Notes under the pieces: model-generated
What the model saw: the letters and a program-made list of their open reading frames with translations, nothing else
The model's database searches: none
Told to the model about the DNA's origin: nothing
Made by a program: the position numbers and the translations under genes
Shown here: positions 4,530 to 23,090 of the stretch, piece by piece
How positions within the stretch are numbered: position 1 is the first letter of the stretch
How the letters are laid out: each line of letters opens with the position of its first letter
DNA from: Variovorax paradoxus
Lineage (GTDB): Bacteria; Pseudomonadota; Gammaproteobacteria; Burkholderiales; Burkholderiaceae_C
DNA length: 64,000 bases
Assembly (NCBI GenBank): GCA_016806145.1
Contig: CP063167.1
Coordinates: forward strand, 1,484,501 to 1,548,500
Direction of reading: 5' to 3'

Positions 4530-5690
4530 ATGAACCCGTTGCAATCCTTCGCGCTCGCCGCGATCCCCGCGCAGGACGAGGCGCTGCGCGCACCGGTGCG
4601 CGACTTCCTGCGCTCGGCGCTGCAGGGCGTGCCCGACGCGGTGCGCGCGCGCTCGTGGATGGGCTTCGATGCCGACTTCAGCCGCGCCCTCGGCGCACGC
4701 GGCTGGATCGGCCTTACGCTGCCGACGGCCTATGGCGGCGGCGGGCGCAGCAGCTTCGCGCGCTTCGTGCTGCTCGAGGAACTGCTCGCGGCCGGCGCAC
4801 CGGTCTCGGCCCACTGGATCGCCGACCGCCAGACCGCGCCGCTGATCCTGCGCTACGGCACGCCCGCGCAGCGCGCCTTCTTCATTCCGCGCATCGTGCG
4901 CGGCGAGCTATTCATCAGCATCGGCATGAGCGAGCCCGACACCGGCTCCGACCTCGCGGGCGTGCGTTCGCGCGCAGTGCCCACGGCCGGCGGCGGCTGG
5001 CGCCTGAACGGACGCAAGATCTGGACGACCAATGCGCACCGCGCCCACTACCTGTGCGCGCTGGTGCGAACCTCGGGCGCGCCCGAGGACCGGCACCGGG
5101 GCCTGTCGCAGCTGCTGGTCGACCTCTCGCTGCCGGGCATCACGGTACGGCCGATCCGCGACCTCAGTGGCGATGGCCATTTCTGCGAGGTGCTGTTCGA
5201 GGACGTCGAGCTGCCCGCCGATGCGCTGGTCGGCGAGGAAGGCGCGGGCTGGCAGCAGGTGACGGCCGAGCTGGCCTTCGAACGCAGCGGACCCGAGCGC
5301 ATCCATTCGAGCCTGGTGCTGGCCGAGGCCTGGCTGGCGGAACTGCGGCGCGCGCCGCGGGTGCCGGACGGCGCGCTGGCCGTGGCCGGGCGCATCGCCG
5401 GGCGCATGGCGGTGCTGCGCGCGATGTCGCTGAGCGTGGCGCGGCAGCTGGGGCAGGGCCTCGACCCGGCCTTCGAGGCCGCGCTCGTGAAAGACCTGGG
5501 CACCGAGTTCGAGCAGGCCCTGCCGGGCTGGATCGAGGAGGCCTTCGATGCGCCCGGGCATCCCGCGCCCTCCGAGGGGCTGCGGCAGACCCTGGCCTAC
5601 GTGACGCAACTGGCGCCGAGCTTCTCGCTGCGCGGCGGCACGCGCCAGATCATGCGCGGCATCATCGCGCGCGGCCTGGGCGTTCGGTAG
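4530..5690 (+). CDS. Acyl-CoA dehydrogenase, catalytic-type subunit
   Basis: A 386-residue acyl-CoA dehydrogenase preceded by GAGGAGGG as ribosome-binding site. The FAD/substrate segment SIGMSEPDTGSDLAGVRS lies near residues 130-147, followed by GRKIWTTNA. The C-terminal motif reads RGGTRQIMRG, so the Glu used by medium-chain enzymes is Gly. A Glu in the segment ELAFERSGPER matches the alternative position used by LCAD/IVD-type enzymes. A shorter acyl-CoA dehydrogenase gene follows 12 bp downstream; such pairs can form heterotetramers in which only one subunit carries the base. Probably desaturates a branched or cyclic acyl-CoA. Confidence 0.88.
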   Translation: MNPLQSFALAAIPAQDEALRAPVRDFLRSALQGVPDAVRARSWMGFDADFSRALGARGWIGLTLPTAYGGGGRSSFARFVLLEELLAAGAPVSAHWIADRQTAPLILRYGTPAQRAFFIPRIVRGELFISIGMSEPDTGSDLAGVRSRAVPTAGGGWRLNGRKIWTTNAHRAHYLCALVRTSGAPEDRHRGLSQLLVDLSLPGITVRPIRDLSGDGHFCEVLFEDVELPADALVGEEGAGWQQVTAELAFERSGPERIHSSLVLAEAWLAELRRAPRVPDGALAVAGRIAGRMAVLRAMSLSVARQLGQGLDPAFEAALVKDLGTEFEQALPGWIEEAFDAPGHPAPSEGLRQTLAYVTQLAPSFSLRGGTRQIMRGIIARGLGVR

Positions 5691-5702
5691 GAGGAGAACG
5701 AG

Positions 5703-6722
5703 ATGAACGACGACATGCTGCTCGACGACTTCGAGCGTCCGCTGGCCGACCTGTGCACCGACGACACGCTGCGCGCCATCGAGGCGGGGGCTTCCGCCGA
5801 GGCGCTGTGGCGAGCCATCGACGGCCTCGGCTTTACCGACGCACTGCTGCCCGAGGCGCGAGGCGGCGCGGGCCTGTCGCTGCGCGAGCTGTTCGCGCCG
5901 GCCTTCGCCGCGGGCCGCGCGGGGCTCGCGCTGCCGTTCGCCGAGACCGCCGTGGCGCGCGCCCTGCTGGTCGCGGCCGGCCAGCGCGAAGCGGGCGGCG
6001 ACGGGCCGATCGCCATCGCACCGGCGGCGGCGCACGAAGGCGATGCCATCGTCTGCCGCGACGTGCCCGGCGGCGCACTGGCGCAATGGGTGCTGGTCGG
6101 CTCGCAAGGCCACTGGCTGCTGCTGCCGCGCGAATGCGCCGTGGCGCAGCCCGGTGCCTGGCGTCCGCGGGTTTCGGCCACCCTGCACTGGGACACGCCC
6201 GCGCTCGCCGTGGCGCGCTTCGAGAGGGGCGATGCCGATGCCACGGCGCTGTGCAATGCGCTGCATGCCGCGGGCATGGCGGGCGCGATGGCGCGCGTGC
6301 TGGAACTCACCACGGCCTATGCGCAGGACCGCCGGCAGTTCGGCCGCCCGATCGCGCAGTTCCAGGCCATCCAGCAGGAGCTCGCGGTGCTGGCCGAGCA
6401 GGCGCATTCGGCCACGCTGGCCGCGCGCCTGGGCTGCAGCGCCGAGGGCTGGCAGCCCGATGCGTTGCTGGCCGCCGTCGCCAAGCTGCGCGCCTGCGAG
6501 GCCGCGCGCGGTGTCGCGGCCATCTCCCACGCCGTGTTCGGCGCCATCGGCATCACCGAGGAGCATGTGCTGGGCCTCTACACGCGGCGCCTGCATGAAT
6601 GGCGCCAGGCACCGGGCACCGAGGCGCAGTGCGCGCGCCTGCTCGGCGAAGCCGTGCTGGCACGGCCCGAGGGGCTGCTCGATGCCGTCCGGCTGAGGCT
6701 GGCGTCGGCGGTGCACGACTGA
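5703..6722 (+). CDS. Short acyl-CoA dehydrogenase-family protein, possible non-catalytic partner
   Basis: A 339-residue acyl-CoA dehydrogenase-fold protein, shorter than the usual 380-390. The middle domain lacks the SEPxxGSD-type FAD loop, while the C-terminal helical domain is recognisable (AYAQDRRQFGRPIAQFQAIQ near residues 204-223, and ISHAVFGAIGITEEH near 275). No Glu is seen at either known catalytic position. Together with its larger neighbour this resembles the alpha/beta subunit pairs described for actinobacterial steroid acyl-CoA dehydrogenases. The start is an ATG with GGAGGAG eight bases upstream. Confidence 0.82.
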   Translation: MNDDMLLDDFERPLADLCTDDTLRAIEAGASAEALWRAIDGLGFTDALLPEARGGAGLSLRELFAPAFAAGRAGLALPFAETAVARALLVAAGQREAGGDGPIAIAPAAAHEGDAIVCRDVPGGALAQWVLVGSQGHWLLLPRECAVAQPGAWRPRVSATLHWDTPALAVARFERGDADATALCNALHAAGMAGAMARVLELTTAYAQDRRQFGRPIAQFQAIQQELAVLAEQAHSATLAARLGCSAEGWQPDALLAAVAKLRACEAARGVAAISHAVFGAIGITEEHVLGLYTRRLHEWRQAPGTEAQCARLLGEAVLARPEGLLDAVRLRLASAVHD

Positions 6723-10960: not shown

Positions 10961-11545
10961 ATGACGACTTCCGACCCCTCCATCTCCTCGCCCGCGCGGC
11001 GTCTGCTCCACACGCGTGAAGTGCTCTGCCAGGGCTACGAGCGCGACGACGGCCTGTGGGACATCGAGGCGCGCATGAGCGACGTCAAGACCCACCCGAT
11101 GCACCACGACGACGGCCGCGTGCGCCTGCCCGCGGGCCGCTTCATGCATCGCATGGGCCTGTGCCTCACGGTGGACGAGGGCCTGCGCATCGTCGCGGCG
11201 CGTGCCTGGACCGAGCATGCGCCCAATGCCGAGTGCATGGACATCGGGGCGTCCTACGAGGCGCTGGTCGGCCTGTCGATCGGGCCCGGCTTCACCTCGC
11301 GCGTGAAGGAGCGCTTCGGCGGCGCGGCCGGCTGCACGCACCTGACCGAGCTGCTCGGTCCCGTGGCCACCACTGCGTTCCAGACGCTGTTCCCGGTGTT
11401 CGAGCAGCGGCGCCGCGCGCGCTTGCTGAGCGACCCCGAAGGCGCGGCGCGCACGCGGCCGCCGCTGCTCGACAGCTGCTTCGCGCTGCGCGCCGAGGGC
11501 GAGGTCGCGCGCGGGCGCTGGCCGGCCTTCGCCAAACCTGCATAG
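10961..11545 (+). CDS. DUF2889 family protein
   Basis: A 194-residue soluble protein that I assign to DUF2889 from its pattern: RRLLHTREVLCQGYERDDGL, then LWDIEARMSDVKTHP, a central GRFMHRMGLCLTVDEGLRI strand pair, and the C-terminal FGGAAGCTHLTELLGPVA. The function of the family is not known; members often sit beside acyl-CoA catabolic genes. The conserved Cys-Thr-His-Leu near residue 125 could be a ligand or metal site (inference). It is the first gene of a plus-strand run leading into the SDR operon 100 bp downstream. Confidence 0.85.
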   Translation: MTTSDPSISSPARRLLHTREVLCQGYERDDGLWDIEARMSDVKTHPMHHDDGRVRLPAGRFMHRMGLCLTVDEGLRIVAARAWTEHAPNAECMDIGASYEALVGLSIGPGFTSRVKERFGGAAGCTHLTELLGPVATTAFQTLFPVFEQRRRARLLSDPEGAARTRPPLLDSCFALRAEGEVARGRWPAFAKPA

Positions 11546-11645
11546 CTGCCATCCGCATCGCGTGGGTACGCCGCGCGGCCTCGCTGCCTACATTGAACGC
11601 ATCCCGTTCGTTGTTGAACCGGATCGAACATTCACAGGAGACGAA

Positions 11646-12563
11646 ATGGCAGGAGTTCTGGAAGGAAAGGTCGTGCTCGTGACCGGCGCGGGCCGGGGCG
11701 TGGGACGCGAGATCGCGCTGCTGGCGGCGCGGCAGGGCGCGAGCGTGGTGGTCAACGACCTCGGCGGCGCATCCGACGGCGAAGGCGAGGGCACGATCGA
11801 TCCCGCCTCGGAGGTGGTGAACCTGATCCGCGCCGAGGGCGGCAAGGCGGTGGCCAACGGCGACAGCGTGTCGAATGCCGACGCCGCGGCGCGCATGGTG
11901 CAGGCCGCGATCGACAACTTCGGCCGGCTCGACGGCGTGGTCAACAACGCGGGCATCCTGCGCGACCGCATGTTCCACAAGATGAGCACGCTCGACTGGC
12001 AGCAGGTGATCGACGTGCACCTGCAGGGCACCTACCACGTGAGCCGCGCGGCCGCGATGCTGTTCCGCGAGCAGCAGTCGGGCGCCTACGTGCACATGAC
12101 CTCGGCCGCGGGGCTGGTCGGCAACATCGGCCAGGCCAACTACTCGGCCGCCAAGCTCGGCATCGTCGGCATCTCGCGCTCGATCGCGCTCGAGATGGCG
12201 CGCTGCCACGTGCGCTCCAACTGTGTCTCGCCCTGGGCCTGGAGCCGCCTGATCGGCACCCTGCCCGCGGAGACCGAGGAGCAGAAGCGCCGGCTCGAGC
12301 GCTTCAAGCAGATGACGGCCGACAAGATCGCGCCGATGGTCGTGTACCTGCTGTCGGACCTCGCCGCGGCGGTGAGCGGCCAGATCTTCGGCGTGCGCAA
12401 GAACGAGATCATGCTGTTCAGCCAGCCGCGGCCGCTGCGCACCGTGCACCGCTCGGAGGGCTGGACCGTCGAGAGCATCGCCGAGCACGCCATGCCCGCG
12501 ATGCAATCCAGCCTGGTGCCGATGGAAAGCGCGCGCGAGGCCTTCGCATGGACGCCGGTGTGA
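11646..12563 (+). CDS. SDR oxidoreductase, MFE-2-like (R)-3-hydroxyacyl-CoA dehydrogenase
   Basis: A 305-residue short-chain dehydrogenase. The NAD-binding motif TGAGRGVG is at residues 13-20, followed by VVVNDLGG; Ser153, Tyr166 and Lys170 form the catalytic set (YSAAK). The NDLGG stretch and overall length resemble the dehydrogenase domain of peroxisomal multifunctional enzyme type 2. The start is the ATG at 11646 with AGGAGA upstream; the longer open frame is not SDR-like. The hydratase-2 gene overlaps the 3' end by 16 bp, so together they look like a split MFE-2 acting on (R)-3-hydroxyacyl-CoA. Confidence 0.88.
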   Translation: MAGVLEGKVVLVTGAGRGVGREIALLAARQGASVVVNDLGGASDGEGEGTIDPASEVVNLIRAEGGKAVANGDSVSNADAAARMVQAAIDNFGRLDGVVNNAGILRDRMFHKMSTLDWQQVIDVHLQGTYHVSRAAAMLFREQQSGAYVHMTSAAGLVGNIGQANYSAAKLGIVGISRSIALEMARCHVRSNCVSPWAWSRLIGTLPAETEEQKRRLERFKQMTADKIAPMVVYLLSDLAAAVSGQIFGVRKNEIMLFSQPRPLRTVHRSEGWTVESIAEHAMPAMQSSLVPMESAREAFAWTPV

Positions 12564-13447
12564 GTCGCGCGATGGCCTTCGATCCCGACAAGCTGCTGCA
12601 GCGCCGCTTCGCGCCGGTGGCGCAGAGCTATACCGCCAAGGACTCGATCCTCTACGCGCTGGGCCTGGGCTTCGGCCGCGACCCGCTCGATGCGCGCGAG
12701 CTGCCCTTCGTCTACGAGGAACGGCAGCAGGCCGTGCCGACCCAGGCCGCCGTGCTCGGCTATCCGGGCTTCTGGATGAAGGAGCCCGACACCGGCATCG
12801 ACTGGCGCAAGGTGCTGCATGCCAGCCAGTCGGTGCAGCTGCACCGGCCGCTCGCGCCGGCCGCCACCGTGATCGGGCGCACGCGCGTCAAGGCGATCCT
12901 CGACAAGGGGCCCGAGGTGGGCGCGCTGTTCTTCGTCGAGCGCACGCTCGAGGACGGCGACGGCGAATTGCTGGCCACGGTGGAGCAGGCGGTGATGGCG
13001 CGCGGCAACGGCGGCTTCGGCGGCGCGAGTGGCCCGTCGCCCGCGGCACCCAAGGTGCCCGACACGCCGCCCGACCACGTGTGTGACCTGCCGACCTCGC
13101 CCTCGCAGGCGCTGCTGTACCGGCTCTCGGGCGACCTGAATCCGCTGCATGCCGACCCCGAGGTGGCGCGCGTCGGCGGCTTCGAGCGGCCGATCCTGCA
13201 TGGCCTGTGCACCTACGGCATCGCCTGCCATGCGCTGCTGCGCACGCTGTGCGGCTACGTGCCGCAGCGGCTGCGGCGCATCGACACGCGCTTCACCTCG
13301 CCGGTGTATCCGGGCGAGACGATTCGCGTCGAGATCTGGGGCTCGCAGGGCGAGGTGCGCTTTCGCGCGACCGCGCTCGAGCGCCAGGTCATGGTGCTGA
13401 ACAACGGCCTGGCCGTGATCGACGCTGCCGCGGGAGGCCCGCGATGA
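12548..13447 (+). CDS. Hydratase-2-type MaoC protein (double hot-dog)
   Basis: A 299-residue two-domain hot-dog protein. The second half carries the complete hydratase-2 signature SGDLNPLH with Asp196, Asn198 and His201, followed by FERPILHGLCTYG. Size and arrangement match the (R)-specific 2-enoyl-CoA hydratase 2 of eukaryotic MFE-2, in which the N-terminal domain has lost the catalytic residues and binds bulky acyl chains. It should hydrate 2-enoyl-CoA to (R)-3-hydroxyacyl-CoA for the SDR encoded just upstream. The stop overlaps the next start (ATGA). Confidence 0.92.
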   Translation: MDAGVSRAMAFDPDKLLQRRFAPVAQSYTAKDSILYALGLGFGRDPLDARELPFVYEERQQAVPTQAAVLGYPGFWMKEPDTGIDWRKVLHASQSVQLHRPLAPAATVIGRTRVKAILDKGPEVGALFFVERTLEDGDGELLATVEQAVMARGNGGFGGASGPSPAAPKVPDTPPDHVCDLPTSPSQALLYRLSGDLNPLHADPEVARVGGFERPILHGLCTYGIACHALLRTLCGYVPQRLRRIDTRFTSPVYPGETIRVEIWGSQGEVRFRATALERQVMVLNNGLAVIDAAAGGPR

Positions 13448-14916
13448 ACGGCATCGTGGCCTTCGGTGCCTACGTTCCGCGACTGCGTCTGCAGCGCGAG
13501 GCCGTGGTGCGCGCCAACGCCTGGTTCGACGGATCGCTGGCGGCGCACCGCGCGGGCGAACGCGCCATGTGCAACTTCGACGAGGACGCGGTCACGATGG
13601 CGGTGGAGGCCGCGCGCGACTGCCTCGGCGCGCTCGATGCGGCGAAGGTCGACGACCTGCAGCTGGCCTCGACCTCGCTGCCCTATGCGAGCCGCCTGAA
13701 CGCGAGCATCGTCGCGCAGGCGCTGAACCTCGGCGAGGAGGTCGGCGCGATCGACGTCACCGGTTCGCAGCGCGGCGCCACCTCGGCGCTGATGCAGGCC
13801 CTGCGCGGCGGCGCGGGCCGCCGCACCCTGGTGGTCGCGAGCGACCGGCGCAAGGCCAAGGTGGCCAGCGCGCAGGAACTGCTCTACGGCGATGCGGCCG
13901 CGGCGGTGCTGGTCGGCGACGGCGAGGTCATCGCGCAGCCGCTGGCCCTGGTGAGCCGTACGGTCGACATGGCCGACCACTACCGCGGTGCCGGCGCCGC
14001 CACCGACACCTACTGGGAGGAGCGCTGGATCCGCGAGGAGGGCCATCTGCGGCAGGTGCCGCCGGCCATCGCGGATGCGCTCGCGCAGGCTGGGCTGACG
14101 GCGGCGCAGGTCGACCGGCTGTGCATCGCCCTGCCCCACAAGGGCGTGCCGCAGCGCCTGGCCAAGCTCGCGGGCATCGCCTCCGAACGCCTGCACGACA
14201 CACTCGCCGCGAGCGTCGGCAATGCCGGCGCGGCCCATCCGCTGCTGATGCTCGCGCATGCGTTGGGCGAGGCGGCACCGGGCCAGGTGCTGGTGCTGGT
14301 GGCCTTCGGGCAGGGCGTGGACGTGCTGGTGCTGCGCACCACCGAGGCGCTGCGCGCGCGGCCGCCGCGCACCGGCGCGCAGGGCTGGCTGGCGCGCGGC
14401 AGCGCCGAGCACAACTACATGAAGTTCCTGGTCTTCAACGACCTGCTGCCGCTGGAGCGCGGCATGCGCGCGGACAACGACAAGCTCACGCCGCTGAGCG
14501 TGGAGTACCGCCACCGCAAGACGGTGCACGGCTTCGTCGGCGGCCGCTGCGGTGCCTGCGGCACCGCGCAGTGGCCGCGCACCGACATCTGCGTCAACCC
14601 GGCCTGCGGCGCCACCGGCACGCAGCAGGACCTGCCGTTCGCCGACACGCCGGCGCGCGTCATGACCTACACCGCCGACCGGCTGGCCTATTCGCCGAGC
14701 CCGCCGGCCTGCTACGGCATGGTGCAGTTCGAGGGCGGGGGCCGGCTGATGATGGATTTCACCGACGTAGACGAGCAGCAGCTCGCCGTCGGCCTGCCGA
14801 TGCGCATGAGCTTCCGCATCAAGGCCGTCGACACCGCCCGCGGCTACGTCCGCTATTTCTGGAAGGCGGCCGTCGCAGGTCCGCAGGAGAACACGCATGG
14901 CAACGGGAATTCGTGA
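13444..14916 (+). CDS. HMG-CoA-synthase-like / Zn-ribbon OB-fold (DUF35) fusion, catalytic Cys replaced by Gln
   Basis: A 490-residue fusion. Residues 1 to about 330 follow the HMG-CoA synthase fold; about 345-480 is a DUF35-type Zn-ribbon/OB-fold domain with an intact CxxC-x10-CxxxxC cluster (CGAC ... CVNPAC). In the synthase part the catalytic Cys position, aligned by CxxAT-type spacing, reads Gln109 in GSQRGATSAL; the general-base Glu position reads Thr77 in ASTS; His232 in LPHKG and the Asn of VGNAG are kept. These positions match S. aureus MvaS Cys111, Glu79 and His233 within two residues. It is unlikely to condense acetyl-CoA. The DUF35 domain probably docks on the thiolase encoded next, as in archaeal thiolase/HMGCS/DUF35 and BbsAB complexes. 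The next gene overlaps by 20 bp. Confidence 0.82.
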   Translation: MNGIVAFGAYVPRLRLQREAVVRANAWFDGSLAAHRAGERAMCNFDEDAVTMAVEAARDCLGALDAAKVDDLQLASTSLPYASRLNASIVAQALNLGEEVGAIDVTGSQRGATSALMQALRGGAGRRTLVVASDRRKAKVASAQELLYGDAAAAVLVGDGEVIAQPLALVSRTVDMADHYRGAGAATDTYWEERWIREEGHLRQVPPAIADALAQAGLTAAQVDRLCIALPHKGVPQRLAKLAGIASERLHDTLAASVGNAGAAHPLLMLAHALGEAAPGQVLVLVAFGQGVDVLVLRTTEALRARPPRTGAQGWLARGSAEHNYMKFLVFNDLLPLERGMRADNDKLTPLSVEYRHRKTVHGFVGGRCGACGTAQWPRTDICVNPACGATGTQQDLPFADTPARVMTYTADRLAYSPSPPACYGMVQFEGGGRLMMDFTDVDEQQLAVGLPMRMSFRIKAVDTARGYVRYFWKAAVAGPQENTHGNGNS

Positions 14917-16102
14917 CAAGGTCGTCATCCTCGGCATGGGCTGCTCGCGCTTCGGCGAGCGCTGGGACTGCAGCGCCGAGAACCTCGCGGTGGAGGCCTT
15001 CACCGAATGCCTGGCCGACGCGGGCATCGGCAAGGAGCAGCTGCAGGCCGCCTGGCTCGGCATGGGCATCGAGACCCAGCACCTGGGCAGCGGCGGCGTG
15101 CCGCTGGGCGTGACCTTGCGGCTGCCGAACATCCCGGTGTCGCGCGTGGAGAACTTCTGCGCCTCGGGCTCGGAGGCATTGCGCGGCGCGGCCTATGCGG
15201 TGGCGTCGGGCGCCTGCGACTTCGCGCTGGCCTTCGGCATCGAGAAGCTCAAGGACACCGGCTACGGCGGCCTGCCGCAGCGCCCGCGCGGCCCGTTCAA
15301 CGACATGGTGTGGCCCAACATCAGCGCGCCGGGCTCGTTCGCGCAGCTGGCCAGCGCCTACCGCGCCAAGCACCGCATCGACGCGAAGGACCTCAAGCGC
15401 GCGATCGCCCACGTGTCGGTGAAGAGCCATGCCAACGCGGGCCGCAATCCCAAGGCCCACCTGCGCAACCCGATCACCATGGACGACGTCATCCACTCGC
15501 CGATGATCGCCGAGCCGCTGGGCCTGTACGACTGCTGCGGCGTGTCCGACGGCGCGGCCTGCGCCATCCTGACCACGCCCGACATCGCGCGCGGCCTGGG
15601 CAAGAAGGACCTGGTGGCGCTGAAGGCGCTGCAGCTCGCGGTCTCCAGCGGCAGCGAGGCCTCGTTCGACGACTGGGACGGCAGCTACTTCCAGACCACG
15701 CGCGTGGCCTCGGCGCGCGCCTACGAGGAGGCCGGCATCCGCCGCCCGCGCGAGCAGATCGACCTGCTCGAGGTGCACGACTGCTTCTCCATCACCGAGC
15801 TGGTGACCATGGAGGACATGCACATCTCGCCCGAGGGCCGCGCCTCGCACGACGTGCTCGACGGCTTCTACGACGCCGACGGCACCATGCCCTGCCAGAT
15901 CGACGGCGGCCTCAAGTGCTTCGGCCATCCGATCGGCGCGACGGGCCTGCGCATGGCCTACGAGATGTACCTGCAGATGCAGGGCCGCGCCGGCGCCCGC
16001 CAGCGCAGCGACGACCCGTCCCTCGGCGTGATCCACAACCTGGGCGGCTTCCCCTGGCAGAACGTGTGCAGCGTGTCGGTGCTGGGCAAGTACGGCGCCT
16101 GA
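14897..16102 (+). CDS. Thiolase, SCP2/non-decarboxylating type
   Basis: A 401-residue thiolase. Cys88 in ENFCASGSEA is the acyl-accepting cysteine; EVHDCFSITE and CFGHPIGATG carry the conserved Asn/His-type loop and catalytic His. It belongs to the SCP2-like branch rather than the FadA branch. In the archaeal mevalonate complex, in BbsAB of toluene degradation and in Ltp2 of steroid degradation, related thiolase-fold enzymes require a DUF35 partner; here that domain is fused to the preceding gene product, with which this gene overlaps. Expected reaction: thiolytic or retro-Claisen/aldol cleavage of a branched 3-ketoacyl- or 3-hydroxyacyl-CoA. Confidence 0.9.
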   Translation: MATGIRDKVVILGMGCSRFGERWDCSAENLAVEAFTECLADAGIGKEQLQAAWLGMGIETQHLGSGGVPLGVTLRLPNIPVSRVENFCASGSEALRGAAYAVASGACDFALAFGIEKLKDTGYGGLPQRPRGPFNDMVWPNISAPGSFAQLASAYRAKHRIDAKDLKRAIAHVSVKSHANAGRNPKAHLRNPITMDDVIHSPMIAEPLGLYDCCGVSDGAACAILTTPDIARGLGKKDLVALKALQLAVSSGSEASFDDWDGSYFQTTRVASARAYEEAGIRRPREQIDLLEVHDCFSITELVTMEDMHISPEGRASHDVLDGFYDADGTMPCQIDGGLKCFGHPIGATGLRMAYEMYLQMQGRAGARQRSDDPSLGVIHNLGGFPWQNVCSVSVLGKYGA

Positions 16103-16137: not shown

Positions 16138-17295
16138 GTGCTGATGGACGAATACCGATCGCCCTGGCGAACGCCCGAGGTCGAGCAGTTCCAGGAAACC
16201 GCGCGCCGCTTCTGGACGGCCGAACTGATCCCCCACGTGGAACGCTGGGAGGCCCAGGGCCACATCGACCGCGGCGTGTGGAGGCGGCTGGGCGAGATGG
16301 GCTTCCTGCTGGCCGACCTGCCCTCCGGCTACGGCGGCGGCGATGGCGACTACGCGCACCTGGCCGCGCTGGTGGAGACCAGCGCCGCGTGCGGCTTCGG
16401 GCCGGGCTTCGGCCCGCACTACATCGTGGGCCACTACCTGCACCACTACGGCAGCGAGGCGCAGAAGCGGCGCTGGCTGCCGGGCATGGCCAGCGGCGAC
16501 ATCGTGGCCTCGATCGGCATGTCCGAGCCCGGCGCGGGCTCCGACCTGCAGGGCATCCGCACGCGGGCGCGGCGCGATGGCGAGCACTACGTCATCGACG
16601 GCTCGAAGACCTTCAACACCAACGGCCACCATGCCGACCTGGTGATGCTGGCGGTGAAGACCGACGCGGCGCTGGGCGCGAAGGGCGTGTCGCTGCTGAT
16701 GGTCGAGACGCGCGATCTCGCGGGCTTTCGCCGCGGTGCGCCGCTCGACAAGATCGGCCTGAAGGCGCAGGACACGGTGGAGCTGTTCTTCGACCAGGTG
16801 CGGGTGCCGGTGTCGAGCCTGCTGGGCACGGGCGAGGGGCAGGGCTTCGCGCAGATGATGTCGCAGCTGCCCTACGAGCGCATGCTGATCGGCATCCGGG
16901 CCGTCTGCAACATGGAGCGCGCGCTCGAGCTCACGCTGGCGCACGTGCACCAGCGCCAGGCCTTCGGGCAGCCGCTGTTCAAGCTGCAGAACACGCGCTT
17001 CGAGCTGGCCGAGATGAAGACCGAGGCCACGCTGGCGCGGCTGTTCGTCGACCAGTGCATCGGCTGGCAGCAGGAGGGGCGGCTCGATGCGGCCACCGCC
17101 GCGATGGCCAAGTGGTGGGGCACGCAGAAGGAGTGCGAGACCATCGACCGCTGCCTGCAGCTGTTCGGCGGCTACGGCTTCATGCGCGAGTACCCGATCG
17201 GGCGCATGTTCGTCGACTCGCGCGGCCAGAAGATCTACGGCGGCGCCAACGAGGTGATGAAGGAGATCATCGCCCGCCAGCTGGTGCCCCGATGA
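16138..17295 (+). CDS. Acyl-CoA dehydrogenase
   Basis: A 385-residue acyl-CoA dehydrogenase. I choose the GTG at 16138 because AAGGAG ends seven bases upstream; an ATG six bases later is the alternative. SIGMSEPGAGSDLQGIR (about 123-139) contacts FAD and substrate. The C-terminal loop reads IYGGANEVMKE, so the medium-chain Glu is absent, but the Glu of QLPYERML fits the LCAD-type catalytic base. It should introduce the 2,3-double bond hydrated by the upstream hydratase-2. The stop overlaps the next start (ATGA). Confidence 0.92.
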   Translation: MLMDEYRSPWRTPEVEQFQETARRFWTAELIPHVERWEAQGHIDRGVWRRLGEMGFLLADLPSGYGGGDGDYAHLAALVETSAACGFGPGFGPHYIVGHYLHHYGSEAQKRRWLPGMASGDIVASIGMSEPGAGSDLQGIRTRARRDGEHYVIDGSKTFNTNGHHADLVMLAVKTDAALGAKGVSLLMVETRDLAGFRRGAPLDKIGLKAQDTVELFFDQVRVPVSSLLGTGEGQGFAQMMSQLPYERMLIGIRAVCNMERALELTLAHVHQRQAFGQPLFKLQNTRFELAEMKTEATLARLFVDQCIGWQQEGRLDAATAAMAKWWGTQKECETIDRCLQLFGGYGFMREYPIGRMFVDSRGQKIYGGANEVMKEIIARQLVPR

Positions 17296-18509
17296 GCGCC
17301 GAGAACCACACCGGGAGCGGCCCGCTCGCGGGCCTGCGGGTGCTCGACATCGCGACCGTGCTGGCCGGCCCCTTCGCCGCCACCCTGCTGGCGGACTACG
17401 GCGCCGACGTGCTCAAGCTCGAGCTGCCCGGCAAGGGCGACGGCATGCGCGCCTTCCCGCCCTTCAAGGACGGCAAGAGCATCTGGTGGAAGGCGGCGCA
17501 GCGCGGCAAGCGCTTCGGCACGCTCGACCTGCGCCGGCCCCAGGGGCTCGCGCTCTTCAAGCAGCTGCTGCCGCAGTTCGACGTGCTGATCGAGAACTTC
17601 CGACCCGGCACGCTCGACCGCTGGGGCCTGGGCAAGGAGGTGCTGTGGGCGCTGAAGCCCAACCTCGTGATCCTGCGCGTCACCGGCTTCGGCCAGACCG
17701 GGCCCTATTCGGAGCGGCCCGGCTTCGCGCGCATCTTCGAGGCCATGGGCGGGCTGACCACGGTCACCGGCCACGCGGACGGCGAGCCGATGCACGCGGG
17801 CGTGCCGCTCGGCGACTCGATCGGCGGGCTGTTCGGCGCCATCGGCATCCTGACCGCGCTGTGGCCGCGCGCGCGCGATCCCTCGCTGCCGGGCGAGGAG
17901 ATCGACCTCTCGCTGACCGAGTGCATCACTCGGCTGCTGGACTTCATGCCCGGCGTCTACGAGCAGCTCGGCACCGTGCCCACGCGCAGCGGTAACCGCA
18001 GCCCGTATTCGGCGCCCTCGGCCGTCTATCGCACGCGCGACGACCGCTGGGTGTCGATGGCGGGATCGATCAACTCGATGTTCGCGAACAACTGCTGCGC
18101 CATCGGCCGGCCCGAGCTCATCGACGACCCGCGCTTCGCCGACAACGCGAGCCGCGTGGTGCACGAGCAGGAGCTCAACCGCATCTTCATCGACTGGTGC
18201 GCGGCGCGCGATCTGGAGGAGGTCCTGGCCGCCTTCGCGCAGGCCGGCGGCACGCTGGCGCCGATCTACGGCATCGACCAGGTGGTGAGCGATCCGCAGG
18301 TGCGCGCGCGGCGCTCGATCGTGCCGGTGCCCGACCGCGACTTCGGCAGCCTCCAGATGCCGGCGGTGGTGCCGCGCTTCGCCGGCAGCCCGAGCGTGCC
18401 GCGCCACGCGGGCGCGGCGCTCGGGCAGGACAACGCGCAGGTGTACCGCGAGCTGCTCGGCCTGCCCGACGACACGCTCGCGCAGTTGCGCGCCGACGGC
18501 GTGATCTGA
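17292..18509 (+). CDS. Class III CoA-transferase (CaiB/BaiF family)
   Basis: A 405-residue family III CoA-transferase. Asp175 in PLGDSIGG corresponds to the aspartyl-CoA nucleophile of formyl-CoA transferase. The His that marks racemases (GHDxNY) is missing; the equivalent segment reads GFARIFEAMGG, so a transferase is favoured over a racemase. It probably activates the imported acid by moving CoA from a donor such as succinyl-CoA. The operon contains no CoA ligase, which makes this the likely entry step. The Bug receptor gene follows 30 bp downstream. Confidence 0.88.
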   Translation: MSAENHTGSGPLAGLRVLDIATVLAGPFAATLLADYGADVLKLELPGKGDGMRAFPPFKDGKSIWWKAAQRGKRFGTLDLRRPQGLALFKQLLPQFDVLIENFRPGTLDRWGLGKEVLWALKPNLVILRVTGFGQTGPYSERPGFARIFEAMGGLTTVTGHADGEPMHAGVPLGDSIGGLFGAIGILTALWPRARDPSLPGEEIDLSLTECITRLLDFMPGVYEQLGTVPTRSGNRSPYSAPSAVYRTRDDRWVSMAGSINSMFANNCCAIGRPELIDDPRFADNASRVVHEQELNRIFIDWCAARDLEEVLAAFAQAGGTLAPIYGIDQVVSDPQVRARRSIVPVPDRDFGSLQMPAVVPRFAGSPSVPRHAGAALGQDNAQVYRELLGLPDDTLAQLRADGVI

Positions 18510-18539: not shown

Positions 18540-19517
18540 ATGAAATCACTCGCGCGCCTGCGGGCGCTGCTCGGAGGGTTGCTGGCCGCGCTGTGCGCCG
18601 GCACCGCGGCCTGGGCCGCCCCCTACCCGGAACACCCCGTGCGCCTCGTCGTGCCGTACCCGGCGGGCGGCGCCACCGACGGCGCGATCCGGGTGCTGGC
18701 CGAGCGGCTCGGTGCCGCCTGGGGCCAGCCCGTCATCGTGGACAACCGGGCCGGCGCCTCGGGCCGGCTGGGCCTCGCGCTGGTGGCCAAGAGCCCGCAC
18801 AGCTACAACTTCGTGGCCGCCACCAACTCGACCATCAGCGACGAGCTGACGCGCGGCGGCGATGGTTCCTTCCTGCTGGCGCGCGACCTGGTGCCCGTGG
18901 TCACCATCTTCACGACGCCGGTCGCGCTGCTGGTGCACACCGGCACGGGCGTCGACAGCATGGCGCAGTACATCGCGCTGGCGCAGCGGCGCCCGGGCGC
19001 CGTGAGCTTCGGCTCCAGCGGCGAGGGCACCAGCACCCACTTCTACGGCGAGCTGCTCAAGCGCGAGAGCCGCATCGACATCACGCACATTCCGTTCGCG
19101 GGAGAGGGGCCCAACCTCACGGAGCTGCTCGGCGGGCACATCCAGAGCGCCTTCCTCAGCGCCTCGGGCGCGAAGAAGGCGCAGCAGACCGGCAAGACCA
19201 GGATCCTCGCGATCTCCACGCCCGGCGGCTCGATGCTGCTGCCCGGCGTTCCCAGCTTCACGCAGCTGGGCATCGCGGGGCTCGACCGCGATTCGTGGGT
19301 CGGCCTGTTCGCGCCGCTGGGCACGTCGCAGGCGGTGCGCGACGAGGTGGCGCGCGAGGTCCGCAAGGCCTTCGCCGTGCCCGAGGTGCGCGAGCGCTAC
19401 GTGCAGCTCGGCCTGATCGCCGAGGGCGGAACGCCGCAGGAGCTCGAGCAGCGCGTGCAGGCCGACCGGGCCTACTGGACGCGCGTGGTGCAGGAGACGG
19501 GCATCAAGCTCAAGTAG
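18540..19517 (+). CDS. Bug-type tripartite tricarboxylate transporter receptor
   Basis: A 325-residue Bug receptor with a Sec signal peptide (ALLGGLLAALCAGTAAWA). Family landmarks are YPEHPVRLVVPYPAGGATD, VIVDNRAGASGRLG, FGSSGEGTSTHFYGELL and ALSTPGG-type segments; the GSSGEGTSTH loop covers the ligand pocket. It is the last gene of the SDR-to-CoA-transferase operon and likely captures the substrate of that pathway for import. It converges on the TonB receptor gene, 17 bp away. Confidence 0.9.
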   Translation: MKSLARLRALLGGLLAALCAGTAAWAAPYPEHPVRLVVPYPAGGATDGAIRVLAERLGAAWGQPVIVDNRAGASGRLGLALVAKSPHSYNFVAATNSTISDELTRGGDGSFLLARDLVPVVTIFTTPVALLVHTGTGVDSMAQYIALAQRRPGAVSFGSSGEGTSTHFYGELLKRESRIDITHIPFAGEGPNLTELLGGHIQSAFLSASGAKKAQQTGKTRILAISTPGGSMLLPGVPSFTQLGIAGLDRDSWVGLFAPLGTSQAVRDEVAREVRKAFAVPEVRERYVQLGLIAEGGTPQELEQRVQADRAYWTRVVQETGIKLK

Positions 19518-19534: not shown

Positions 19535-21976
19535 CTACCAGCGGTAGGTCGCCGTCGCCAGCACCTTGCGCGGCTCCCCGTAGTAGCAGCTGCCCGAGCT
19601 GCAGTTCGCCACGTAGTTGCGGTTGCCCAGGTTGCGAAGGTTCAGCGCGAGGCTCCAGCGCTCGAAGTCGTAGCCCAGCAACGCGTCGAACACGGTGTAC
19701 GAGGGCACGGGCACCGGCGTGCTCTGCTGGTAGCCGCGGTTCGAGCCCATGAAGCGCGCGCCCAGGCCGAGCTTCACGCCGTTGGCGAAGCGGTAGTCGG
19801 CCCACACCGAGAGCTGGTTGCGCGATACGGCCTGCATCTGCTTGCCGATCTCGCTGGGCGTGCTGCTGGCCGTGACCTCGGCCTTGGGCGTGTAGGTGTA
19901 GGCGGCCGTCACGTTCATGCGCGGCATGGGTTCGAACGAGGCCTCGAGCTCGAGGCCGCGCACCAGGATCTCGCCGGTCTGGCGCGGCGTGTAGTCGGCG
20001 TCGTAGGTGATGTAGTTCTGGCGCCGCAGGTCGAACACGGCGGCGCTGTACTTGTCCTTGCGGCCCACCGGCTGGTAGCGCACGCCCACCTCGTACTGGC
20101 GGCCGGTCTCGGGCTTCAGGGGCTGGTTGGTCTGCGGGTCGACCGTGACCGTGGGCGAGAACGACTCCGAGTAGCTGAAGTAGGGCGCCCAGCCGCTCGG
20201 ATGCAGGTAGACCAGGCCCGCGCGGCTGGTGAACTTGTGGTCGTCGATGCGCGTGGTCGAGCCGTCGATGTGGCTGAAGGACACGGCGCGCGCGCTGTCG
20301 TAGCGGCCGCCCAGCGTGGCGACCCAGTCGCCCCACTTGATCTGGTCCTGCAGGTAGAAGCCGGTCTGCGACAGCGTGGTGCGCGCATCGAACCACGGGT
20401 CGGCGGTGGTGGTGAGGCCGGTGCTCACCGGCAGGTAGCCGTCGATGTCGCTCACGGTGCCGCTGTTGGAGGTGCGCTGGTCGTTGCGCGAGCGCTGGTA
20501 GTCGAGGCCGACCAGCAGCGTGTGCTGCCAGTCGCCCCAGCGCAGCTTCGCCTGCAGCTGGTTGTCGATCGAGGCGATGCGCGCGGCCTCCTTGCTCGCG
20601 AACGGGAAGCGGCTCAGCACGCGGTAGTTGGCGGGGCTGGCCGGGTTGTCGGCATCCACGGTCACGAAGCTGGGCTGGTTGTAGACCTGCCCGTAGTCGA
20701 CCTTGATCGAGCCGTAGCGCGCGTTCTGGCGAAAGCTCAGCGTGTCGTTCAGGCGATGCTCGAACAGGTAGCCGACCATCCATTGGTCCTGGTTGAAGCG
20801 GTCGAAGTTCGGGTCGCCGACGTAGGTCTTGCGCGAGAACTGGCCGTTGGGGTTGGGCAGCAGGGTGCCGACCTCGGGGAAGCTGCCGTAGGAGCTGCCG
20901 TCGCGGATGCGCAGGTAGTGCGACAGCAGGGTCAGCGAGGTGTCGCCCGAAGGCTTCCAGGTCAGCGAGGGCGCGATGAAGCTGCGGTCGTTCGGCAGGC
21001 CGCTGGCCGGCAGGCTGGCATCGCGCAGCAGGCCCGTGAGGCGGTAGAGCAGCTTGCCCTCGGCATCGAGCGGGCCCGAGAAATCGCCCGCGATCTGGCG
21101 CCGCGCGTTGTCGCCGAACTGCAGCTGCAGTTCGCGCAGCGGCTGCGCGGTGGGGCGCTTGCTGACCACGTTGATCATGCCGCCCGGACCGTTCTGGCCG
21201 TAGAGCACCGAGCTCGGGCCGCGCAGCACCTCCACGCGCTCGGTACCGTAGCTCTCGGTCTGCCAGATGGCCCAGCCGTTGTTGTTGCGCAGCTGCAGGC
21301 CGTCGAGGTAGTAGCCGGGCGCCTGCGCGTCGAAGCCGCGCAGGATGGTCCAGTCGAAGCGCGAGTCGGCGCCCCAGGGCGAAACGTTGATGCCCGGCGT
21401 GTAGGCCAGCGACTCCTTGAGCCGGGTGGCGCCCGTGGCCTCGATGAAGTCGGCGGTGACCACCGAGATCGATTGCGGCGTCTCGATGATCGGCGTGTCG
21501 GTCTTGCTGCCGGCGGTGGCGCGCCGCGCGATGTAGCCGGGAACATGGCCGGTGGCGGTCTCCTCGGTGCCGGCCGTGACCACGATCGGCGGCAGCGCGC
21601 CGGTGTCGCCGGCCGAGGCGCGCACCACGGTGAAGGCCGCGTCGCCGTTGCGCACGTAGCCCAGGCCGCTGCCCGCGAGCACGCGCTCGAGCGCCTGCTG
21701 CAGCGTGACGGCGCCGCGCACCGCGGGTGCGGTGCGGCCCTCGAGCAGCGAGCTCTCGCCGCCGATGGCGATGCCGTACTGGCGCGACAGCACGCCCAGG
21801 CTCTGGGCCAGCGGCTGGGCCGGCAGCGCGAGCTGCAACGTGGTCGACGGGGCCGCCGGCGCGCCTTGCGCACGCGCGGGGCCGCCCATTGCGAGCAGCG
21901 CCGAGGCGATGGCGCAGGCGAGGGCCGCGGCCTGGAGGGAATCGATGCGGGGGCGCCGCGGGGTCTGCTGGTTCAT
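19535..21976 (-). CDS. TonB-dependent siderophore receptor with STN signalling domain
   Basis: An 813-residue outer-membrane receptor. The start at 21976 gives a signal peptide ending near residue 37 (GGPARAQ); the longer open frame lacks one. Residues about 45-105 form an STN (secretin/TonB N-terminal) domain (LALPAQPLAQSLGVLSRQYG), as in transducing receptors such as FecA. The plug follows (TPQSISVVTADFIEATGA, then VEVLRGPSSVLYGQNGPGG), and a 22-strand-type barrel ends in the aromatic Trp813 expected for Bam assembly. With the FecR and ECF sigma genes upstream it should import a ferric siderophore and signal its presence. Ligand unknown. Confidence 0.95.
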   Translation of the reverse strand: MNQQTPRRPRIDSLQAAALACAIASALLAMGGPARAQGAPAAPSTTLQLALPAQPLAQSLGVLSRQYGIAIGGESSLLEGRTAPAVRGAVTLQQALERVLAGSGLGYVRNGDAAFTVVRASAGDTGALPPIVVTAGTEETATGHVPGYIARRATAGSKTDTPIIETPQSISVVTADFIEATGATRLKESLAYTPGINVSPWGADSRFDWTILRGFDAQAPGYYLDGLQLRNNNGWAIWQTESYGTERVEVLRGPSSVLYGQNGPGGMINVVSKRPTAQPLRELQLQFGDNARRQIAGDFSGPLDAEGKLLYRLTGLLRDASLPASGLPNDRSFIAPSLTWKPSGDTSLTLLSHYLRIRDGSSYGSFPEVGTLLPNPNGQFSRKTYVGDPNFDRFNQDQWMVGYLFEHRLNDTLSFRQNARYGSIKVDYGQVYNQPSFVTVDADNPASPANYRVLSRFPFASKEAARIASIDNQLQAKLRWGDWQHTLLVGLDYQRSRNDQRTSNSGTVSDIDGYLPVSTGLTTTADPWFDARTTLSQTGFYLQDQIKWGDWVATLGGRYDSARAVSFSHIDGSTTRIDDHKFTSRAGLVYLHPSGWAPYFSYSESFSPTVTVDPQTNQPLKPETGRQYEVGVRYQPVGRKDKYSAAVFDLRRQNYITYDADYTPRQTGEILVRGLELEASFEPMPRMNVTAAYTYTPKAEVTASSTPSEIGKQMQAVSRNQLSVWADYRFANGVKLGLGARFMGSNRGYQQSTPVPVPSYTVFDALLGYDFERWSLALNLRNLGNRNYVANCSSGSCYYGEPRKVLATATYRW

Positions 21977-22055
21977 GTCCGAAGGTCCTGGAGCTGGTTT
22001 GCTACAGAAGACCAGCGAGACGCCGCGTACCCCCCAAAAATAATCAAAACTTTTT

Positions 22056-23090
22056 TCAGGGCCGCCGCGCCGTGCCGGCGGCATGGCCGACGATTCGCGT
22101 GCCGCCGTCGGCCAGGCGCTGCGTGCGCACCGGCAGCATCACCGGCAGCGCGCCCACGAAGGCCTGCGGATCGCGCAGCCGGTAGCTGCCGGTCACGCGC
22201 AGCTCGCGCAGCGCGGGGTCGTCGGCCAGCTGCAGCGGCTGGCGCAGGTAGTCGTTCCAGCGCGCCACGGCCTCGGGCAGGCGCGTGTTGCGGAACACCA
22301 GCCAGCCCTGTTGCCAGTCGGCCACCTCGCCGACGTCGACGCTGCTGCGCGGGCCCAGCCCGCGCGCATCGGCCTCGATGGCCTCGCCGGCCTGCAGCAC
22401 GGTGCTGGGGGCGGCCGCCTCGTCCTGCCCTGCGGCCCAGACCGCGACCCGGCCCTCGGCCACAGCGAGGCGCATGCGGCCCTCGCGCACCGACACCGTG
22501 AACACCGTGCCGAGCACGCGCACGCGGCCCCAGTCGGTCGTCACGGTGAAGGGGCGCTCGGCATCGCGCGCGACCGCAAAGCGCGCCTCGCCGCGCGCCA
22601 GGTGCACCGTGCGGCGGTCGCGGTAGAGCAGAACATGCAGCGCCGTGTTGGCTGCCAGGTCGAGCGTGCTGCCGTCGGGCAGCGCATGGGCCAGGGTCTG
22701 CGCCTGGCCGGTGCTCGGCATCGCCTCGTAGACCGGCTGCTGCCAGTACCAGCGTCCGCCGGCACCGGTCAGCGCGGCCAGGCCGGTCACGCCCAGCAGG
22801 CCGATCGTGCGGCGCCGCGCGCGCCGTTCCTGCGCGGCGCTCGGCGGCATCGGCAACTGGCCGCGCAGCGCGCCGTCGTCGACCGCGTTCCAGATCCGGT
22901 GCGCGGTCGCCGCGGCATCGGCGTTGGCGGGCGACAGCGCGCGCCAGCGGCCCAGCTCGGCCTGCGCGGCGTCGGCGGCCTCGGGGCTGCCGCGGTGGAT
23001 GCGGCCGATCAGCGTCAGCGCATGCTCGACCAGCGCGCGCGGCGCGCGCCGTTCGTCGGCGCCGAGCAGGGGTTGTGCGCGCGCGGCCAT
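22056..23090 (-). CDS. FecR-family anti-sigma/sigma-regulator protein
   Basis: A 344-residue FecR-type inner-membrane protein. The N-terminal cytoplasmic part (DUF4880-like) binds the sigma factor; one membrane segment lies near residues 88-105 (RTIGLLGVTGLAALTGAGG); the periplasmic part has the FecR core (DGSTLDLAANTALHV, LARGEARFAVARDAERPF, VRVLGTVFTVS) that contacts the receptor's STN domain. The ATG at 23090 lies 2 bp after the sigma-factor stop, indicating coupling. The TonB receptor gene follows 79 bp downstream. Confidence 0.93.
   Translation of the reverse strand: MAARAQPLLGADERRAPRALVEHALTLIGRIHRGSPEAADAAQAELGRWRALSPANADAAATAHRIWNAVDDGALRGQLPMPPSAAQERRARRRTIGLLGVTGLAALTGAGGRWYWQQPVYEAMPSTGQAQTLAHALPDGSTLDLAANTALHVLLYRDRRTVHLARGEARFAVARDAERPFTVTTDWGRVRVLGTVFTVSVREGRMRLAVAEGRVAVWAAGQDEAAAPSTVLQAGEAIEADARGLGPRSSVDVGEVADWQQGWLVFRNTRLPEAVARWNDYLRQPLQLADDPALRELRVTGSYRLRDPQAFVGALPVMLPVRTQRLADGGTRIVGHAAGTARRP

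Follow-up and report, generated by a model that had tools for sequence, protein, structure and literature searches.

Genes and domains at the locus

The window, that is, the whole stretch of 64,000 nucleotides of Variovorax paradoxus DNA that was analysed, contains a run of genes on the + strand, headed by a gene for a DUF2889 protein (10961..11545), that can be regarded as a putative operon. It continues with an SDR, the probable 3-hydroxyacyl-CoA dehydrogenase, whose start codon is uncertain (11643..12563), a MaoC/MFE-2-type hydratase (12548..13447), the fusion protein considered here (13444..14916), a thiolase (14897..16102), an acyl-CoA dehydrogenase (16144..17295), a family III CoA-transferase that probably activates the substrate (17292..18509), and a TctC-type substrate-binding receptor (18540..19517). 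Together, the CoA-transferase, dehydrogenase, hydratase, SDR, and thiolase would provide a full turn of beta-oxidation for an acid, which the TctC receptor perhaps binds. A scan for promoters (0 found, 0.4 expected) and terminators (2 found, 2.1 expected) was uninformative. Beside the operon, on the - strand, a large ORF (19535-22084) resembles a TonB-dependent receptor by eye.

The gene at 13444..14916 was originally predicted to encode a fusion of an HMG-CoA-synthase (HMGCS)-like domain and a DUF35 domain, and this holds: it is a single open frame of 490 aa with Pfam matches to ACP_syn_III_C (residues 213-292), zf-ChsH2 (362-391), and OB_ChsH2_C (404-458). The synthase-like domain, of the HMGCS/KASIII fold and without the catalytic triad, spans about residues 1-305 (13444..14358, +), and its fold is that expected of the synthase part in three-part complexes of thiolase, HMGCS-like, and DUF35 proteins. 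The DUF35 domain spans about residues 354-480 (14503..14883, +) and consists of a Zn ribbon and an OB fold, intact and fused as had been proposed; the ribbon cysteines 369, 372, 383, and 388 are all present and are kept in 204, 196, 196, and 196, respectively, of the 205 aligned rows described hereunder. The fusion gene overlaps both of its neighbours: its ATG shares bases with the stop codon of the MaoC gene (ATGA), and its last 20 bases also form the start of the thiolase gene. The synthase-like, DUF35, and thiolase parts are encoded together at this locus. The closest solved relatives of the fusion are PhlA, its best sequence match (1e-27), and the archaeal HMGCS of 6ESQ, while the DUF35 part matches 6ESQ chain E (2.5e-7) and PhlB (7e-4).

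The partner thiolase has 401 aa and is a member of NCBIfam NF004810, scoring 650 bits against a cut-off of 403, with 7YVY (acetyl-CoA acetyltransferase) and 6ESQ chain A as its nearest solved relatives. Its Cys88, HDCF motif (residues 294-297), and His344 are intact, and it carries the Cys nucleophile, HDCF, and GHP of degradative SCP2/archaeal-type thiolases. Among 101 thiolase sequences from the loci examined, Cys88 is found in all 101 and His344 in 97 (4 gaps). A steroid-aldolase reading of the partner was considered and rejected for these loci, where HDCF is intact in 100/101 (1 gap) and is not the YDCY of Sal.

Homologue sampling and selection

Of 7993 candidates scored in the database search, 4964 matched with E <= 0.001, and the best 120 of the 4964 were used. 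One alignment of 205 rows comprises the window protein, 119 of these best 120 matches (all but P0003, which is 99% identical; P0002 represents the reverse strand), and 85 frames from loci; the overlap between sources was retained. A second, of 231 rows, adds 12 frames from a phylum sample and 14 named plasmid loci (14/38 plasmid records); it includes three non-fused frames (L100, L101, and L106) and one (L084) that is cut by a contig end. A 72% identical copy at 367-1833 of a 3 kb contig (L013), filed under a Desulfovibrionaceae MAG, is probably there through a binning error.

When the synthase domain is compared with three Achromobacter genes, dN/dS is 0.17-0.25 (0.128/0.505, 0.153/0.887, and 0.128/0.701), so the domain is not a decaying relic. 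With a dN of 0.128-0.153, it changes at nearly the rate of the MaoC gene (0.112-0.120), and the thiolase evolves more slowly (about 0.05). The dead synthase domain is maintained by purifying selection.

Assignment of the active-site positions

Residue positions were read from a phmmer alignment to chain I of 6ESQ, an archaeal HMG-CoA synthase, and from a profile-profile comparison (probability 99.9) in which 25 family members were set against the 6ESQ synthase and PhlA. Both place Gln109 (13768..13770, +) on the 6ESQ Cys and Thr77 (13672..13674, +) on the 6ESQ Glu, in agreement with what had been proposed for these two residues. The third assignment, an intact catalytic His at residue 232, was mistaken: the 6ESQ His (motif FHQPNGK) aligns with Ala229 (14128..14130, +), and His232 (14137..14139, +) falls on an Asn three residues later and is a His in only 1 of 231 rows, the window protein itself. 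The near-identical spacing to MvaS noted by the original prediction is therefore a coincidence at the His.

Column 109 of the 231 rows holds Gln in 164, Leu in 45, Arg and Ala in 5 each, Met and Thr in 2 each, and Val, Ser, Pro, Gly, and Cys in one each, with 3 gaps. The only Cys belongs to L101, a non-fused, MvaS-like frame that has the Glu and His too; loss of the Cys is thus general among fused rows with a letter in this column. Conservation of Gln109, one of the tests that the original prediction had set for itself, was not found, since the 7 rows that are 65-73% identical to the window protein include 4 with another residue (3 Leu and 1 Val, with Gln in the remaining 3) and R, A, T, G, S, M, and P occur elsewhere. 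On a quick tree of 76 rows of less than 80% mutual identity (4 of them references), built with column 109 left out, at least 8 changes between Gln and any other letter are needed.

Thr occupies column 77 in 221 of 231 rows. Column 229 most often holds Pro (200 rows), followed by Ala (20), His and Val (3 each), Ser (2), and Cys, Thr, and Gln (one each). Gln109 is thus common yet exchangeable, and the position of the catalytic His is mostly a Pro in the family. A His is found at column 229 in the MvaS-like L101 and in two fused members, L102 and L110, that have Arg at column 109. These two retain the His within a VHEP motif and may form a sub-group.

Other positions are strongly kept: besides Thr77, the residues R15, R84, D175, D178, R181, His265, and the stretch W191-R197 are nearly invariant. 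His265 is present in 218/231 rows, the 13 without it including both haloarchaeal and four actinobacterial members. It lies five residues past the position of the active-site Asn of FabH and is not known to be catalytic.

Pairing of the fusion with the thiolase

For the count of neighbouring genes, we used 107 loci of at least 80 bits, without L001 and L090 (the window again) and the haloarchaeal L106 and L115; the thiolase was sought by similarity to that of the window, and distances were taken between matched stretches. A thiolase gene lies downstream on the same strand in 100/107 loci, and within 150 bases in 90 of these. In three of the 100, it is 1.7-3.7 kb from the synthase gene, which counts against the subunit reading discussed hereafter. 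Five of the seven loci with no thiolase end within 283 bases. In another (L096), the contig ends 834 bases on, and the thiolase of that genome begins another contig. The last (L097, genome G186) has the synthase and thiolase genes on different contigs; nothing homologous to the window's thiolase was found in the 14 kb surrounding the former, and this locus likewise counts against the subunit reading. The family member of this genome (L117, 7790-9232) keeps one of the four Zn-ribbon Cys and has Thr, Ser, and Asn in place of the others.

Among 398 genomes of the phylum sample, a full-length fusion (E at most 1e-100) is found in 10, in 11 copies, and an NF004810 thiolase above the curated cut-off is found in the same 10, also in 11 copies; one genome (G229) has two of each, and none has one of the pair alone. 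The limit of 1e-100 was chosen after inspection of the list, where the next match is at 6e-20, and copy numbers may be low, with 3 or 4 candidates scored per genome. Likewise, among 41 relatives, the fusion and the thiolase (counted at identity of at least 63%, all others being at most 36%) occur in the same 6 genomes; there are 7 copies of either gene, and one genome (G018) has both in duplicate. Fisher tests, uncorrected for kinship, give p = 4e-20 for the 398 genomes and 2e-7 for the 41. This one-to-one co-occurrence is the strongest new evidence that fusion and thiolase work as one unit, and it upholds, together with the downstream thiolases, the earlier suggestion that a synthase that has lost its nucleophile is the partner of the adjacent thiolase.

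Two weaker matches in the 398 genomes are not fusions. One, in G242, is the MvaS-like L101, and the other (L100, in G376) is a frame of 333 aa with Ala at the Cys column. The latter (C1:149645-150190) starts 6 bases past a thiolase of 276 bits, below the NF004810 cut-off; L100 and its thiolase represent the pair in a more distant form, without the fusion.

The association does not extend to the SDR. A conserved triad of SDR, synthase, and thiolase was considered as a general arrangement and rejected: counting only loci with room and neighbours of at least 60 bits to the window's SDR, a match lies within 1.5 kb of the synthase gene in 23/100 loci and is adjacent, upstream, and on the same strand in 12/100.

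Occurrence of the pair in other organisms

The pair is found in a variety of settings. In Novosphingobium ES2-1 (L103), where the family protein is about 30% identical to that of the window, it lies in an estrogen-type operon, near thiolase, SDR, and acyl-CoA dehydrogenase genes. In Rhodococcus, Variovorax, and a Mycobacterium avium plasmid, it has ring-hydroxylating dioxygenases as neighbours; in Sphingopyxis, Tistrella, and Sphingobium, it is accompanied by acyl-CoA dehydrogenases. Operons with the pair most likely break down unusual acids, aromatics, and steroids, and the role of a thiolase subunit fits all these named loci.

In four stretches (L108, L111, L112, and L116), dioxygenase genes are near the pair, and three of the four have a CoA-ligase-type gene. 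These settings recall the ipf genes for ibuprofen, where the thiolase encoded by ipfDE is described as yielding propionyl-CoA (PMC9195938). The two haloarchaeal members have Thr instead of the Cys and an annotated thiolase upstream; one (L115, 3986-5422) is a single gene, whereas the other (L106) has the synthase (5001-5951) and OB-fold (5951-6370) as separate genes.

Proposed role and alternative explanations

We consider it likely that the fusion is a non-catalytic, DUF35-fused subunit of the adjacent catabolic thiolase. The synthase-like domain is a pseudoenzyme and, with the same confidence, an integral, non-catalytic part of the thiolase complex. This reading rests on the lost triad, the intact active-site residues of the thiolase, the one-to-one co-occurrence, the purifying selection, and the homology of the synthase-like, DUF35, and thiolase parts to the known complexes. 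In such a complex, which we infer to be a physical one with a stoichiometry that may resemble (A2C2)2B4, the synthase-like and DUF35 halves would hold the thiolase dimer and complete its acyl-CoA site, much as PhlA and PhlB do for PhlC, and HMGCS and DUF35 for the archaeal thiolase. The chemistry would be left to the thiolase alone and would presumably be thiolytic cleavage of a 3-ketoacyl-CoA that the operon's own acyl-CoA dehydrogenase, MaoC hydratase, and SDR supply. The substrate is probably an unusual acid, whether bulky, branched, or alicyclic. Besides the exceptional loci noted earlier, two observations count against the subunit reading: Thr77, Pro at column 229, and His265 are kept more strongly than a pure scaffold needs, and two fused members have His at the catalytic position.

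A sharper form of the subunit explanation, and one compatible with it, is that the dead site has kept the capacity to bind CoA or the acyl chain, shares a pocket with the thiolase, and sets its substrate range. We regard this specificity role as a serious possibility, at a little less than even chances. The nearly invariant residues listed earlier speak for it, as does 6ESQ, in which CoA lies at the interface of all three proteins (PMC6392133), whereas the account of PhlABC in the same paper reports it as having no CoA-binding residues, and Q, L, R, A, M, T, G, V, S, and P are all accepted at column 109. More tentative still is a generalization, namely, that catabolic thiolases of Pseudomonadota and Actinomycetota include a widespread, obligately two-component class, each with its own dead synthase-DUF35 protein whose former site would serve as the substrate gate for steroid, aromatic-diol, or alicyclic CoA esters.

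The nearly invariant Thr77, His265, and Arg residues could instead belong to a new catalytic activity of the synthase domain, such as hydrolysis or a different C-C cleavage, and the 2020 paper on the estrogen homologue guessed at another activity, for example that of a thiolase (PMC7793797). Such an activity is improbable. An intact thiolase accompanies the fusion in each of the 10 phylum genomes that have it, and His265, which is not known to be catalytic, is dispensed with in the 13 rows mentioned earlier.

A Gln at the Cys position is linked to decarboxylation in KSQ domains, and the original prediction had raised the possibility that Gln109 and a His decarboxylate a malonyl-type acyl-CoA. 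The 164 Gln rows are in keeping with this analogy, but the position of the catalytic His is not a His in the window or in most of the family, and Gln109 is exchangeable, even among the nearest relatives, which together argue against a KSQ-like decarboxylase. Moreover, the three rows with an aligned His have Arg or Cys at column 109 and never Gln, and the operon looks degradative, so we rate this idea as very unlikely. Database names suggest that the fusion is an active condensing enzyme of the HMG-CoA or KASIII type, a reading that deserves practically no credence: its best NCBIfam match is indeed the HMG-CoA synthase PRK04262, but at 157.6 it does not reach the cut-off of 244 (nor does TIGR00748, at 103.4 and 353.35), the Cys, Glu, and His are absent, and without the Cys a Cys-dependent condensing mechanism is already excluded by the sequence.

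The non-catalytic subunit remains our preferred explanation. Databases name such genes HMG-CoA or ketoacyl-ACP synthases in pathways where these enzymes make no sense. If the fusions are obligate thiolase subunits, the puzzling gene of the estrogen pathway and of many pollutant-degradation operons gains a role, and the thiolases would need co-expression with the fusion for assay, which makes the proposal directly testable.

Comparison with known systems

The archaeal complex of acetoacetyl-CoA thiolase, HMGCS, and DUF35 (6ESQ, 6ET9) differs from the pair in that its DUF35 protein is separate, whereas that of the window is fused. The 6ESQ HMGCS has Cys114 and Glu82 and is described as active (PMC6392133); in contrast, the Cys, Glu, and His are all lost from the window protein.

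PhlA, PhlB, and PhlC (PpATase, CsATase; the diacetylphloroglucinol acyltransferase) likewise combine synthase-like and DUF35 subunits with a catalytic thiolase-like one, which has Cys88. PhlA has Gly115 at the Cys, Cys83 at the Glu, and Gln at the His column, and only residues of PhlC are described as catalytic, PhlA being without the Cys and Glu (PMC6392133). The fusion resembles PhlA in that the Cys and Glu are lost and the thiolase-fold partner is intact. There are, however, differences: in PhlABC the synthase and DUF35 parts are separate proteins and in the window one protein, the window thiolase carries HDCF and resembles PhlC only remotely (1e-14), and the window operon is degradative, unlike PhlABC. 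A further relative is MucA of the MucABC acyltransferase of Streptococcus macacae (9VBO, 9VBT), at about 18% identity; the muc cluster is described as serving tetramate biosynthesis (PMC10161427). In a quick tree with 6ESQ as the root, neither PhlA nor MucA groups with the catabolic rows; the supports are 94 and 89, neither of them starred, and the branches are long.

In Sal/Shy, Ltp2/ChsH2, and BbsB/BbsA, too, a DUF35 domain binds a partner of the thiolase fold, and in Sal this domain is reported to shape the site (PMC12329534), but no synthase-like subunit is described for them, and Sal has the motif YDCY where the partner thiolase of the window has HDCF.

The literature searched, which lay mostly outside subscription papers, assigns no role to a catabolic HMGCS-like/DUF35 fusion. 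The earlier statement that such a function had not been described holds only in part: PhlA is a solved synthase-like subunit without the Cys and Glu beside a catalytic thiolase-like one (PMC6392133), and an estrogen homologue was already under suspicion of having no condensation activity. The latter is the 'HMG-CoA synthase' EGO55_13555 of the edc operon of Novosphingobium tardaugens, noted in 2020 in an account that, in its treatment of the operon, gives it no role; its authors doubted a condensation, which would be senseless in the estrogen pathway (PMC7793797). Compared by that description rather than by the EGO55_13555 sequence, the edc operon has the gene order of the Novosphingobium ES2-1 locus, in which the pair is present.
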